64,000 nt of DNA, from NCBI GenBank assembly GCA_018902385.1, contig JABSSW010000070.1, forward strand, positions 62,001-126,000, in the 5' to 3' direction. This stretch comes from Physcia stellaris. Lineage: Eukaryota > Ascomycota > Lecanoromycetes > Caliciales > Physciaceae. Of the stretch, positions 1 to 13,232 are shown piece after piece (the first letter of the stretch is position 1; every line of letters starts with the position of its first letter). The notes beneath the pieces are model-generated. The model had not been told where the DNA came from. It did not search any database and saw only the letters and a program-made list of their open reading frames with translations. The position numbers were made by a program, and so were the translations under genes.

Positions 1-2150
1 TTCAAACATTGACGACATTATTTGAAAAACGCTCAACATGAAATTTTCGTTTTCACGAATCATTATAATTTGAAAAAATTCATGAAAACGACGAGATTTT
101 CGTCGCGTCAAATTCGATGAACTCAAAAATTGTTTAAATACAATTTTCGCATTGATTATCGTTAAAGCAAAAAAAATTCAACGAATGCATTATTTCGACG
201 ATCAAATTTAATGCAAAAAAAGAATGACGTGTTCGAAAAAAATCGTCGAATTTTGCATCGTTTTCAAAAGTTTTTGCAATTACGAAATAATAATATAAAA
301 ATCATGTTTATAGTATGCAAATCTCAAAAAAAAACTGAACGATCAAAATTTTTTGAAATTCATGCAAAATCAATAACGAATCAACAAAAAATTGATTAAC
401 GTACATTAATGATTGACGAAATATACGTTATTGAACGTTTCGACGAATTGATCGCAATACGTAACGTCATGATTTCAAAACAAATTTACGACGAGAAAAT
501 TGCAAAGTTTTTCGTCGATTTGATTTTTCAAATGTTGTTTCAAAATTCATTCGTCGTCTCGTTTCGAAAAAAATTAATTATTTTCAACGAAAACGACGAA
601 CGTTGAATCGACGAAAATGACGTTTTTCGTTTTGAAAAAAATTGTATGTATCAAAACGAATTCGATTCGATGTATTGCAACGTTGTCACGATGATTTTTT
701 TGCAAATCATTTCGAAATTGACAAAATTTTGAAATTATTTCGTCGCAAATATTATTGATTTGATCGAAATTATGATTTTGACATGTTCGTTGACATGTTC
801 GAATTCGTTAAAAAATATTGCGAGAATTGCGTTATTTGCAAACGAAACAAAACATCAAAATACAAATCATATGAAAAGTTTCAATTTCTTTTTGTATTTC
901 AATATCGATGAGTTGATTTTACAATGAATTTCGTGACAAAATTATCAACAAACAAAAATTGAAATGATGTCAAATACGACAACATTCTCGTCGTCGTCGA
1001 TCGTTTTACGAAAATGATTCATTATATTCTCGTCACGAAAACAATCAAAATCAAAAATCTGACGAAAATGTTTATACAAAAAATAATTCGATATCACGAT
1101 TTTTTTAATTTTATCATCATTGATCGTGAATCGCTGTTCACGTTCGAATATTATTATTTTTTGTGTTACGCATTGAAAATAAAGAAAAAAACGTTCACAA
1201 CGTTTCATTTTCAAATTGATGAACAAACGAAACGACAAAATAGTATCATGAAACAATATTTTCGAACATATGTCAATTTCGCTCAAAATAATTGAATTTT
1301 TTTATTTTTCATGATCGAATTCGTTTACAATAATGCGAATCACGTTTCAATAAACATGTCATCGTTCAAAATCAATTTGAATTATAATCTTCGTATGATT
1401 TTTGAAAAAAATTCTGATTCACGATCGCGTGTTTCAACGACATTGAATCAATCAAAAAAATTACGTCAATTGATTATTGTATTCAAAAACGAGTTAATGA
1501 ATGTTCAACGAAATCAAACACGTTTCAAAAACAAACGAAACATTGCTAAAACGTACAATAGAAACGATATAATTTGATTAAATGTCAAAAATATAAAAAC
1601 GAAACGAAACAACAAATTGAAACATCGATTTTTCGAATCATTTAAAATTTTCGACACGCATAATTTCAACGTTTACAAATTGACGTTATTTGATCAACGA
1701 CACATACACGATGTATTTCACGTCTTTTTGCTCGAAAAAAACAATTCAAAAAAGAAAAAAAATTCAATAATTTTTGTCACGTTTTCTTTTGATTATATTG
1801 ACGTGAAAAATCAAGATTCGATGTATTAAATACGTGAAATTGTTGATAATGTTGATTTCGAAACGAGCAAAATTTTCAATCGATTTGAATGATTAGAAAA
1901 TTTTTATTATTTAATAGATTGAAAAGATTACGAAAAATACAATCGCATATGAAAATTTTATGAAAAAATAACACATTTGAAAAAAAAATTTCGTCAATTT
2001 CACGATGAAAATTTTAACAAATCAGACGATCGAAAAATTACATTAACGTCGAAATCGAAAAATTTTATTTTCAAATCAAGAATTTTCAAATCGAAAAAAA
2101 AATCAAATCGTTTTCGCAAAAAACAATGACGAATATCAAATTCAAATACA
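1..2150 (+). mobile_element. Decayed Ty3/Gypsy (chromovirus) pol remnant
   Basis: Remnant of a chromodomain-type LTR retrotransposon, reading on the + strand. Read through stops, one frame path shows an RNase H tail at about 46-215 (like the family's HNL..F..TTK..SRRQ..W..Y.F.I.YR), then the integrase zinc finger at about 685-860 (H..D..F..H, RRKYY, CxxC). The integrase core follows at about 985-1300 (VVVDRFTKM, IIDRESLFTFEYYYFLCYAL, FHFQIDEQTKRQN), then the AEFAYN-like segment at about 1305-1560, an HDVFHVFLLE segment at about 1700-1735 and a chromodomain at about 1830-1985. Almost every in-frame stop is TGA at a position where the family has Trp (118, 756, 909, 1293, 1920, 1950). Gln codons (CAA) survive. 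Reverse transcriptase, protease and gag lie beyond the left edge. The element is non-functional. Confidence 0.88.
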
Positions 2151-4390
2151 ATGTTTACGAATTTTTTTGTCAAATTTTATTTTTCAATCAAATTTTCATC
2201 GTCGTCGAATTATTATCGTCGAAATCAATCAATTTATAATTACAATCATTTGATCAAATTTCGATCAATTGTTTGCAAAAATTCATTCAACGCATTTGCA
2301 AAAATCATTGAATCAACACATAATCGCGAAAATGTTTTCGTTTTTTTCGATTTTCGTTGAAAATATTTATCATTTGATTATTTTTCATTGTTTCAACAAA
2401 TCACGCATTTTTTTGTTTTGTTTTTTTTCATTGAGTTTTTCAAATTTTAATGAAACGTAAACAAGAAACAAAAAATTTTCTTTTCGTTTTCGTATCAAAT
2501 TTCGCGAAACATTTCGTCTTTCTATATCGATTATGCATTTTTTTGTTCTATTTTCTTTCATTGAATTTTTCAGATTTTGACGAGACATTGACAACAAACG
2601 AAAAATCATTTATTCAAACATACAAACAATCGTCGTCGTCATCGTCGCAACAACGAAATTAATTTTCATTCGAAAATTATTTCGATTATATAAAATATTT
2701 TTAGATTTTCAATTTTCAATTTTTTTTTTCATCGTCATTTTCGAAATCGCTTTCGAAAACAAATTTCTTGAAAATGTTATCAAACGACGACATCATCAAC
2801 GAATGATGTTTGAAAAAATCGATCGTCGATTTGTGAACGTCAAACATGTGAATTTCATGAAATTTCGATCTCGTTGAAAAAAAATAATGTAACGATGCAA
2901 ATCAGAATCGAATAAACGATTTGCAAAAATTCAAATCAAAATCGAGAAATCGATTGCTCGACATTGATGTTCAGATTTTAATGAGCAAATTTCGATATAT
3001 TCGTCGAACGATGTAATCAAAAAAATTGCATAAATTTTGATTTGAAAATTTTGAAAATCAAAAATGAATTATGTATTAGCGATATGCGATAATCGTTGAA
3101 AATCTCGATAGAAAATCGTCAAATACATAATAAATCACGAATTTTGTTTTGAATGAAACAACGATTCGTTTGAATATCAAAAACATGCAATTTTAATTCT
3201 AGTCAATTGATGCAAATAAATCAATCTTTTGAAAGAAAAAGTTTTACAATTCGTTCATATTCATTCGTCGACAATAAATAAAGAAAAACGATGTTTGTAC
3301 AAATTGATTTTTAAAAAACAATGAAAATCGTGACGATTGTCATTGAATTCATTGACGTAATCGATGATTTGTTTATCATGAAACGTATTGATAATTTGCA
3401 CGTTAATAAAATATTTGTTTTTTTTTATCGAAAAAAACGTCATCGTAATAATGAAACTTTTCGAACAAAAATATAATTGTTTTATCAATTATGCATCAAT
3501 CATCACGTCATTTAAACGATGTTTCGATATTTTCAATTCATTGTTTTGCAATTTCGCGAATTTCATTGTTTTCGTTTGATTATTTGATGTGATTTTTTTG
3601 CATGTTCGATTCGAAAATTTCAACGATAATTCGTTTGATGATTTTATGTACAATATTTTTGTCAATTTCAGTTCAATGAGCGATCGTTTGCAAATTATTG
3701 TTATTGTCGTAAATTTCAAATCGTTTAAAAATAATAAAAATTTGACGTTTCACGAATATTTGTTGTTGATAATTATCGTTTTGAAAAACGAATTGATATT
3801 GCAAACGTTTCATCAAACGATCGAATATAAAAAAATTGATACGAATTTTTTGTCGAAATAATTTCGAACGATGTTTGAAAAATTCGAAAATCATATCAAA
3901 ATTCACAAAATTTTGAATATCGATCGTGAAATCATGAAATTTCGCAATTGATCGATATGTTTTATGACGTTCAATATTTTTTTCGTGTATTCATCATTCG
4001 TCGAATTTTCGAACGACGAAAAACTCGACGAATTCAAATTTTTTACAAATTTGTTGATCAAATCGACGAAAAAATTCGTAATCAACAAAATTTGAACGTT
4101 CAATTTCAAATCAATTTTAATCATGTTGTGCAAAAAAAAAAAATGATTAACAGACGATCAACAACAACAACGAAAATCAATGCAACATCAAAAATTTCTC
4201 ATTATATCAATTCAAAAATAATAAAATTTGATTTCGAAACGTTTCGCTCGTTACATATGTGTAAAACTTCTTTTCAAACGAAACGTCGAAACGTTTCGAT
4301 CTCGAAACGTTTCGAAAATGTAACGAGCAAAAACAACACGTTGTGATTGTTTCTAATGAAACACATCGTTTCAAAATCATGTGCGCATCG
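2151..4390. repeat. AT-rich mutated block, probable LTR and second element remnant
   Basis: This stretch continues the transposon block with the same composition: long A and T runs, frequent CpA and CpG, and almost no CpC, CpT, GpG or ApG. Nothing in it can be identified as a protein domain. It probably holds the 3' LTR of the Gypsy element and part of another mutated copy, but I found no pair of long terminal repeats by eye. Open frames here (for example 3589-3861 and 3948-4346) are low-complexity by-products of the base composition, so no genes are called. The right boundary is gradual over about 4340-4560, where CT and CC dinucleotides return. Confidence 0.7.
4235..4328. repeat. Triple 12-bp palindrome with 11-bp inverted repeat
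   Basis: The perfect palindrome CGAAACGTTTCG occurs three times, at 4235-4246, 4287-4298 and 4303-4314. Overlapping the first copy, GCTCGTTACAT (4246-4256) is the exact reverse complement of ATGTAACGAGC (4318-4328). The whole segment could therefore fold as a stem of 11 bp with the palindromes in and next to it. It lies near the right edge of the AT-rich block. Function is unknown; it could be a terminal feature of a mobile element. Confidence 0.6.
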
Positions 4391-4568
4391 CAATCATCGT
4401 TTTCTCTTTTTTCATTTTTCTAGAATAAATTCAAAGCATAGCTATTTTAGACTTTCATTTTCAACTTTCAGTCATCATCGATATCTTCATAATTTACACA
4501 ATTTCATCTTTCATCGTATCTCTACAGCATCAACTACAATAATTCACATTATCAAGAAAAGACGTCTA

Positions 4569-4645
4569 CCCGTCCTCGGCACAACGGATACGAATACGAT
4601 ATGAAGATAACATCATTCTTCGAATTCCGTCCCGAGTCGGGTAAG
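4569..4645. repeat. Dispersed repeat, copy A
   Basis: A sequence of about 75 bp starting CCCGTCCTCGGCA, with GATATGAAGA in the middle and ending TTCCGTCCCGAGTCGGGTAAG. It matches copy B (5012-5085) along its length and the distal part of copy C (59591-59669). It has no coding potential. It may be the end of a short non-autonomous element or a solo LTR. Confidence 0.6.
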
Positions 4646-6413
4646 TGCTGGCCGATTCCAGGTCGTGGGAGATTATATATTTATGTGGATTTGGTTATAC
4701 AGGAGATAGTGATAAATAGGGATTGCGTGCTGAGATTGAGGTCTATAGGATTCTGTAGGGAATGATCTATGCGTAATTTTAAAGGGGACACCAGATCGTG
4801 GATATCGCTACTGTGGGATGTTGCAGTGGAAGATAGCATCGGGCCCGTCAATTCCAGAAAAACAAGCATGTCTATACTAGATGACTTTTATCATGAAGTC
4901 TTTTTCTCAAAATTCAGCTGTCGCTATCCCCATAGTCATGATGCGATTCTGCCTTCCACCGCACCACCACAGTTCCAATGGTTCGTAAATGATGACAAGG
5001 AAAGACGCGGCCCCGTCCCCGGCAAAGAGCATATGAATACAATATGAATGAAGCACCGTCTTCGGATTCCGTCCCGGGTCGGGTAAGCTTGATCCGCCAT
5101 GAACTTGCCTGTACAGCTCTATCCCGCGGAGGCAGTAATAGTACCGAGATTTTCCAGATCTATACGATGACGCAGGGCGTGATCGATGCCTATCTCCGTG
5201 GTGGCACCAGTTGCTTTCGGTGAATTGCAGAGGAGGAGATCAGTATCTGGACTGTAGTTCATTACGAACCCATTCTATCACGCTATTGTTTTCGAAGCTC
5301 GGATCAAGATACCAACGAATTAACCTAGCCTTTAACATTCTCACCGAAAATTAGAACGTATATTCCACAAAAAGGGCTGGGAAATAAGCAATTCCACGAA
5401 CTGTTCACCCCTCCGTTCAGGAACTAAAATCAGTCATCTTCAATTTTTTATCGCGGAGCGACGGTTTTCCATCAACCTTACGGTTTGTTGAATAGAGTGT
5501 CTTCTGCAAAACCAAAGTTACCTCACGAACTCGAATTTACAGATATTCCATGTGTTCGTGTGTGTGTGCAGACGGAACCATGCAGCTGACGATTTCCGCC
5601 CGGCGTCGTACCGGGAACGACATCCCGCTGCCATCGACGCGGGTGGCGACAGATCGTAACATATTTTGGGTAAAGCAGGACGCAACGACTTTGAGAAGAG
5701 AAATGGAGCCGGTACTGGACAATTTTTCTGGAGCGCAAATATCAAATGATTGATGGATTGGACTCTCTGGAATAGCGTATGAGGTCGAGTGAGAATTTCG
5801 AGAATACTCATATCAACGGACCCAAACGAGGTCTTTTTTTTCAGCGGAGAGGTCTGGTTACTCTGGACTTGGCTACACGGATCTCGTTCCCACGATTGCA
5901 TTCTTTCCGTCGCAAATTGGATCTATGCAAGGGGGATTAATATATTTCCAGTCGCACAGATGTACCGTATATGCCCCCTGATGCAGAAACCGAAGCGGAG
6001 GGGTGAATTGGGACTTTGTGAAGCTGCTGATGAATGTCCAGTATCCTTCCAAAAAAGAAGGCTGACGTTCTTCTGATTGGAGGTATAGTCTGACTCCTTC
6101 TTCATGGGCTTTAAAGTGACTCTGAAATAGCTCTTATAATTCGGAGCCAAGGACTATATGTTAAGCGAAGGGAGGTCAGAAAGTGGTGTGCCAGATCGTC
6201 GGTGAATGATCCTCGATGCCGACTGTCAGGGCTCCTTTTGCAAGAGGCGATGTAGTGAACAACATAAATTCACCTCCAACTCTCCACTTCAGCGACAACT
6301 CACCACAATCGCATTGTAAGACGCCATGTAGTAAACAGCACAACTCATCCATTACCCACCTCGAAGACAACTCAGCTCCATCGCAGCAAGTCATTCCCTC
6401 AATTCCTCAAGAT
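4646..6413. other. Intergenic, no gene recognised
   Basis: Normal-composition DNA between the AT-rich block and the first gene, containing repeat copy B. Short open frames (for example 4769-5047 +, 5518-5901 -, 5789-6076 +) show no domain, no usable splice context and no recognisable protein. An in-frame ATG at 6216 could extend the following gene upstream by 66 low-complexity codons. Confidence 0.5.
5012..5085. repeat. Dispersed repeat, copy B
   Basis: Direct repeat of copy A, lying 443 bp downstream in the same orientation. It starts CCCGTCCCCGGCA, has ATATGAATG in the middle and ends TTCCGTCCCGGGTCGGGTAAG. Copies A and B bracket about 370 bp of non-coding sequence, so together they could be the ends of one small element. 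Confidence 0.6.
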
Positions 6414-13047: not shown

Positions 13048-13232
13048 GAGACTAGTGCTAGGAAAAGGAATAGAAATGTGAAGACATACGTTACCTACCC
13101 ATTCATCCCACACATCATATTCTTTTGAGCATCACACAGCAGAGACTAGTGGTACGAAAAGGAACAGAAGTGTGAAGAGCCACGTTACCTCCCATTGAGC
13201 CACGCATTCCGCTCTTTTGAGCAGCACACAGC
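13048..13232. repeat. Diverged 90-bp tandem duplication
   Basis: Two adjacent copies, about 13048-13140 and 13142-13232. Both begin GAGACTAGTG, continue with GAAAAGGAA.AGAA.TGTGAAGA and CGTTACCT, and end CTTTTGAGCA.CACACAGC. They differ at roughly one base in five. They lie just upstream of the TATA box of the small secreted protein gene, so they may be duplicated promoter sequence. Confidence 0.75.

Follow-up and report, generated by a model that had tools for sequence, protein, structure and literature searches.

The window analysed here is a 64,000-nucleotide stretch of the genome of the lichen fungus Physcia stellaris (C70:62001-126000 of an assembly of 43.97 Mb in 147 contigs). Judged from its sequence, a decayed Ty3/Gypsy-type element occupies the left end of the window (positions 1-4346) with its 3' part, and this report concerns the process that decayed it. 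The element extends past the left edge of the window; its locus (L001) begins about 500 bases upstream and is without CC or GG. Related DNA was found in the genome as at least 56 matched pieces, and three copies were 89% identical to window positions 1000-2000. A published P. stellaris assembly, which is a Nanopore-Illumina hybrid, comprises 46.57 Mb in 184 scaffolds with a GC content of 43.32% (PMC7513301). The accessible text of that paper, searched for RIP, repeat and transpos, holds no analysis of repeat-induced point mutation (RIP) or of transposons in Physcia. Here and below, statements on papers cited by PMC number refer to the accessible portions of those papers.

Two integrase remnants are discernible on the forward strand of the block. 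The segment at 1578-1826 matches the Tf2-1-like SH3 domain of the integrase C-terminus (PF24626, 40.4 bits versus a cut-off of 30). An open piece at 963-1292, taken without read-through, resembles the integrase core (rve, PF00665), although this match has an E-value of 0.12, lies below the Pfam cut-off and is suggestive only. A PF00665 search of the genome identified only six places, presumably because decayed integrases fall under the threshold. The end of the repeat at 4234-4346 has a separate match at C70:163714-163825 (86% identity) and includes a 30-base near-palindrome at 4286-4315. No strand is assigned to the block, the repeat end or the sequence to the right of it. An Rfam scan of the window gave no match.

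The original prediction, made from the letters of this stretch, had described 1-4390 as a transposon block mutated at CpC and CpT instead of CpA, the context of classical RIP. Its hand counts agreed with our recount. With both strands counted, positions 1-180 contained 22 CA, 24 CG, 4 CT and no CC, together with 42 ApT and 14 TpA (21 and 7 per strand, compared with about 20 and 7 by hand), and positions 3541-3660 contained 17 CA, 14 CG and neither CT nor CC. Over the whole of 1-4390 (GC 0.266) CC and GG were absent, and there were 78 CT, 540 CA and 550 CG. The corresponding odds ratios were 0.00 for CC, 0.18 for CT, 1.26 for CA, 3.54 for CG and 0.38 for TA, and both classical RIP indices (TpA/ApT, 0.38; (CpA+TpG)/(ApC+GpT), 1.36) scored the block as not mutated. 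The depletion is real and stronger than had been claimed. As an internal control, positions 5000-64000 (GC 0.51) contained 8079 CA, 7554 CC, 6668 CG and 7709 CT. Thus, depletion of C followed by a pyrimidine (CpY) does not extend across the rest of the window, and the original prediction was not refuted there.

Homology to other copies ends at 4346 (92% identity to C49:175004-175950 over 3400-4346; 86% to C70:163714 over 4234-4346), and the repeat and the strong depletion stop at this position, not at 4390. CpY accounted for 77 of 1152 CpN in the block, 21 of 66 in the flank at 4347-4568 and 108 of 226 (0.48) at 4569-5068. Ordinary sequence of normal GC, which includes the internal control, begins at 4569 and continues to 64000, with a CpY/CpN of 0.51 at 5000-64000. 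The flank contained 31 CA, 14 CG, 21 CT and no CC (0 CC among 21 CpY sites, P = 0.0006 on base composition), the first CC or GG being at 4569. At this edge, the one examined, the effect is confined to the repeat and its immediate vicinity and dies away over the roughly 220 bp that follow the end of the repeat. The flank looks like DNA that received a low dose, with CpC lost and CpT partly retained, which is the pattern expected of spread from a repeat-targeted process.

Comparison of intact and decayed copies

Transposon copies of normal GC with open frames are present in the genome (L013 on C52, L014 on C5, L015 on C12 and L016 on C39) amid many decayed ones. The Gypsy copy L013 was used as the reference, and each C on both strands was classified by the base that follows it in L013. 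In 22 aligned segments, which are pieces of at least 18 insertions, C was changed to T at 6313 of 6446 CC, 5909 of 6702 CT, 500 of 6502 CA and 220 of 6008 CG sites, all in the same way. Alignment with a less mutated Gypsy copy therefore placed most changes at CpY and not at CpA, on both strands, just as had been proposed. The base preceding C, counted with one additional segment (L072, 52.7 bits) that was excluded from the set of 22, had little effect; the following base decides. Strand bias in partially mutated copies ran either way (L051, L057).

The best pair for comparison was L013 and the copy on C55 (L058 plus L068), with 3,444 aligned sites. C-to-T changes were present at 434 of 436 CC, 449 of 460 CT, 26 of 445 CA and 0 of 404 CG sites, such that 883 of 896 CpY sites (98.5%) had changed. 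These 909 C-to-T changes were accompanied by changes at only 2 of 1,699 A/T sites and by no C/G transversions, indicating hypermutation rather than slow decay. The CpA changes were concentrated at CpApY, which accounted for 21 of the 26 (21/187 versus 5/258 elsewhere, P 5e-5).

A second element family provided an intermediate stage. Comparison of L073 with L014 identified C-to-T changes at 361 of 467 CC, 190 of 429 CT, 14 of 452 CA and 10 of 447 CG sites, while 41 of 1,660 A/T sites had changed. These copies form a dose series in which the changed fractions of CC and CT are 77% and 44% in L073, 96% and 78% in L050, and 99.5% and 98% in the C55 copy. CpC was mutated at about 1.7 to 2.4 times the rate of CpT in L050-L057 and L063, which are partial copies; this ratio is uninformative in the most saturated segments (L070, 1.00; L071, 0.76). 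There was no sign of processive action: in six partial copies, neighbouring CpT sites that had escaped mutation showed no clustering (lag-1 correlation -0.09 to 0.04, permutation p ≥0.19).

Two decayed copies had features of their own. L073 (C95:25093-28551) was decayed unevenly, with 2, 3, 14, 2, 3 and 16 CC plus GG per 500 bp, as if tracts had been skipped. L059 (C25:16850-20326) had changes at 82 of 444 CpA sites (18.5%), the highest share among the compared segments longer than 1 kb. These changes were again mostly at CpApY (51/187 versus 31/257), and the high share could reflect repeated rounds or a weak second activity.

Divergence between two GC-normal copies with long open frames, L014 and L015, served as a control. 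They differed at 176 of 3,475 sites (5%), and the 134 transitions were distributed over CA (31), CC (42), CG (24) and CT (37). Although 79 of the 134 were at CpY when 50% was expected from composition (P 0.047), this lean is slight at most and does not approach the bias of the decayed C55 copy (883 of 909). From these data we conclude that ordinary divergence in the P. stellaris genome does not produce the CpY pattern. The L014/L015 pair may itself have received a light touch of the CpY process.

Extent in the genome and the stop codon record

We picked 73 partly overlapping loci by similarity to transposon sequence; 56 of these, which are not a random sample, had a GC content below 0.40. All 56 carried the CpY signature (CC below 0.5 and CT below 0.75 of expectation), and CpY decay was observed in all decayed transposon copies examined. 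None of the 56 passed either classical threshold (TpA/ApT ≥0.89; (CpA+TpG)/(ApC+GpT) ≤1.03), the highest TpA/ApT being 0.51 and the lowest CpA index 1.22. The expectation that common indices would miss such blocks was thus borne out, with the exception that RIPCAL defines a CpC index, which would reveal the CpY signal if requested (PMC2621366). The lowest GC among the decayed loci was about 0.24. Based on the published GC content, with 0.51 outside and 0.265 inside the block, about 30% of the genome may be affected.

Stop codons provided a second record, which reaches copies beyond the 73 loci. Among reverse-transcriptase matches, 150 of which were scored out of 527 candidates, there were 250 TGA, 33 TAA and 3 TAG codons, and 10 of the 150 were stop-free. 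Matches to DDE_1 (n = 10) contained 44 TGA, 3 TAA and 0 TAG, and those to DDE_3 (n = 23) contained 47 TGA, 6 TAA and 2 TAG. These results suggest that the same mutation rule applies to two DNA-transposon families. Within the open frames of L013 of at least 250 codons, 384 of the 470 stops gained in decayed copies were TGG-to-TGA changes and 35 arose from CAA or CAG, consistent with the earlier claim that Trp codons became TGA. A TGG-to-TGA change corresponds to a CpC change on the opposite strand, whereas CpA mutation would yield TAG and TAA.

C5-methyltransferases of the genome

The search for RID- or Dim-2-type methyltransferases that had been recommended identified three C5-methyltransferase genes: DIM-2 (L010; best solved relatives the DIM2 chains 9bap and 9baq, 608 bits), RIDa (L011/L012) and RIDb (L009). 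Once one intron in RIDa and two in RIDb are inferred, both genes have an uninterrupted methyltransferase domain; they carry the motifs LEQT and MEET, respectively. The RID protein spliced from the genome matched a P. stellaris protein (P0121) with 100% identity at the 299 residues compared. RIDb was assigned to the RID/Masc1 subfamily by its C5-methyltransferase fold, by its placement with RID proteins and by the PPCQ and E(Q/E)T motifs of this subfamily.

A tree of 82 rows (79 selected from 232 proteins returned, and the three of P. stellaris) was built by a quick method without bootstrap. RIDa grouped with the ordinary RIDs of Lecanoromycetes; RIDb belonged to a distinct 15-row clade (SH-like approximate likelihood ratio test 100) in which Heterodermia is the only named relative. 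When 12 rows of the RIDb clade, leaving out its three basal rows, were compared with 63 other RID-class rows, 12 positions separated the two sets. Two of these, H to Q at 302 and G to P at 306 (L009 numbering), map to the catalytic loop or next to it. The RIDb loop reads SPPCQSFSPAQ; at its final residue, 86% of the 63 other rows have H and some Eurotiomycetes have K. The predicted model of the Heterodermia orthologue (mean predicted local distance difference test score 88) shows a C5-methyltransferase that has a beta domain at its N-terminus and a DNMT1/MET1/CMT-like fold, and its nearest solved structures include MET1, DNMT1, ZMET2 and DIM-2.

Short RID-class proteins of several lichens, presumably Teloschistales, formed a clade of their own outside the RIDb clade (P0047, P0063, P0068, P0189, P0204 and P0225). 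For some of these lichens a long RID-class protein from the same organism was also in the tree. The target context of the short protein is worth a look for comparison.

Discussion

The copies compared here establish the direction, the context, the near-saturation and the speed, relative to ordinary mutation, of a CpY mutator that acts on both strands. The repeat in the block was probably destroyed by a RIP-like mutator that follows a new rule, namely that C is changed to T before a pyrimidine on both strands. CpC is mutated at roughly double the rate of CpT; a C that precedes A is seldom changed, chiefly at CpApY, and one that precedes G almost never. The completed process would leave DNA without CC, CT, GG and AG. 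By analogy with RIP, it may operate in the sexual cycle before meiosis, and the agent would be a RID-class cytosine methyltransferase. Base-composition drift was rejected, as the rest of the window and the intact copies are normal.

Whether the process is called RIP depends on how widely the term is drawn. In the wide sense of repeat-targeted C-to-T hypermutation it probably is, since the C55 copy has C:G to T:A transitions on both strands with few other changes, and two RID/Masc1-class genes with an open methyltransferase domain (L009, L011) are present. Classical, CpA-type RIP was rejected: CpA was nearly spared (26/445 versus 883/896 for CpY), and its indices were passed by 0 of 56 loci. 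In Neurospora crassa the order of targets is CpA>CpT>CpG>CpC (PMC5496416). RID-dependent RIP of N. crassa resembles the Physcia process in that C is changed to T on both strands of repeats and in that a RID-class gene and DIM-2 are present; however, the order in Physcia is CpC>CpT>>CpA>CpG, and the stops are mostly TGA from Trp instead of TAA or TAG.

Other known contexts also differ. For Trichoderma reesei, CpA is about equal to CpG and CpT ranks above CpC, one sign being missing from the text (PMC5496416). Botrytis, Sclerotinia and Magnaporthe have a CpT signature and a RID/Masc1-class gene, but there CpT accompanies CpA and the accessible text reports no CpC signature (Amselem et al. 2015, PMC4352252), whereas in Physcia CpC leads and CpA is nearly spared. 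RIP-like mutation of the CpG type is described for Microbotryum, for Tuber (with CpA) and weakly for rusts (PMC4352252); this context, too, is other than CpA, but CpG was untouched in the best Physcia copy (0/404). CpC sites also change in Monilinia, where RIP with CpC-to-TpT double changes is described, although the main pattern expected in that genus is the classical CpA-to-TpA change (PMC8959702). The targets are CpA and CpT in Anisogramma (PMC10998396), and 5-methylcytosine in MAGGY of Pyricularia prefers CpA over CpC and CpT (PMC7979813). Methylation induced premeiotically, as in Ascobolus, leaves repeats methylated and not mutated, in contrast to the mutated repeats of Physcia. Across 1,239 fungi, a pattern-agnostic survey reports a preference for CpA common to RIP-like defences; Lecanoromycetes are among its classes with enriched k-mers and absent from its 130 species with strong recent signatures (PMC12543289). 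No CpC/CpT-specific process was found in the literature searched, in which some papers naming both RIP and CpC are represented by their listing (e.g. PMC3017866, PMC4014442, PMC4522978, PMC2973834) and to which the context survey of Clutterbuck 2011, a possible source of a hint, does not belong.

A rule set by the 3' base fits a C5-methyltransferase, because such an enzyme senses the sequence flanking its target with its recognition domain and catalytic loop. RIDb is the prime suspect, as it is an unusual enzyme with an open frame whose sole named relative within its clade comes from another lichen of the Physciaceae; we consider the chances that it is the agent to be about even. The corresponding proposal for the family as a whole, which seems to us just as evenly poised, is that in Physciaceae (Physcia, with the orthologue in Heterodermia) RIDb is an old RID paralogue turned dedicated pyrimidine-reading mutator that drives repeats to an end state free of CC, CT, GG and AG.

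The CpY rule could instead be due to RIDa, or to DIM-2 in a RIP role, with RIDb as a bystander, but this seems rather unlikely. Both enzymes are present with open methyltransferase domains, and in Neurospora DIM-2 methylates with a CpT preference, according to a review (PMC13297926), and serves a second RIP pathway (PMC12543289). Cladonia rangiformis has RID and DIM-2 homologues, yet most of its transposable element-derived sequence is at 10-20% GC (PMC12542154). As this is under the lowest value found here (about 0.24), C in other contexts also seems to be lost in a lichen that has those homologues. Moreover, RIDa falls among ordinary Lecanoromycete RIDs, and a CpT preference alone would leave the lead of CpC over CpT unexplained.

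In many genomes, methylated C is known to mutate to T. If 5-methylcytosine in CpY-methylated heterochromatin were slowly deaminated by spontaneous events, without a dedicated mutator, this would also agree with DIM-2 methylation not being limited to CpG (PMC13297926). This is a very improbable origin given the 909 C-to-T changes in 3,444 aligned sites of the C55 copy, in which 2 of 1,699 A/T sites changed and CpY reached 98.5% (883/896) against 0/404 for CpG. A free DNA cytosine deaminase of the APOBEC type, which would likewise change C to T on both strands, is more doubtful still and in our view extremely unlikely: APOBEC enzymes read the base 5' of C, whereas here the preceding base matters little and the following base decides. 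APOBEC_N had no match in the genome, and the control genomes gave none either, so absence is not established by this search. Systematic C-to-T miscalls in modified repeats, a sequencing or assembly artefact conceivable for a Nanopore-Illumina hybrid such as the published assembly (PMC7513301), can hardly be credited at all. Unmutated transposon copies lie within the same assembly, partial states have CpC ahead of CpT, and proteins with the expected composition occur in independent metagenome assemblies.

The last point derives from a query with the open reading frame of a decayed element (L032, 344 amino acids), which is without Pro and Gly; DNA free of CC and GG cannot encode either residue. 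Thirty homologues were found in public metagenomes (29 in ENA and 1 among JGI proteins), 27 of which contained neither Pro nor Gly. As a query of this kind biases which homologues turn up, the result indicates occurrence elsewhere and not frequency.

Several observations weigh against a repeat-directed CpY mutator encoded by RIDb. The link between RIDb and CpY is drawn from their co-occurrence in one genome, in which RIDb is one of three candidate methyltransferases. CpA was struck more often than CpG over the 22 segments (7.7% versus 3.7%), which could reflect a weak activity on CpA or a second enzyme. The intact L013 persists beside an otherwise near-identical decayed copy, and L014 and L015 are both open at 95% identity. 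The process is therefore not always efficient or not always on; for the L014/L015 pair, it was leaky or the insertion followed the last round. Finally, restriction to repeats rests on a single edge.

The P. stellaris repeats provide a clean, nearly saturated case with a rule opposite to the CpA preference through which RIP is usually detected, and indices built on TpA and CpA can overlook heavily mutated genomes. Were RIDb a dedicated mutator, RIP would have a second, orthogonal channel, one with products that standard indices take for unmutated DNA. As two RID-class enzymes occur naturally in the same genome, one can also ask which residues set the target base, a question that has been hard to address because purified RID had no detectable activity (PMC13297926). 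The decayed copies with few other changes are a ready-made record of mutagenesis. Since it is chiefly Trp codons that turn into stops, reading frames remain long despite the decay, and annotation may list them as genes with abundant Lys, Ile, Phe and Asn but no Pro or Gly.

Other repeats in the window

A dispersed repeat of about 90 bp has GC-normal copies in the window at 4560-4645 and 4999-5090, with endings GGGTCGGGTAAG or GAGTCGGGTAAG. It was found at 12 or more further places in the genome with 74-82% identity, had no Rfam match and may be too short for targeting. A tandem pair with a unit of about 94 bp, the copies of which are 80% alike, lies at 13048-13232.

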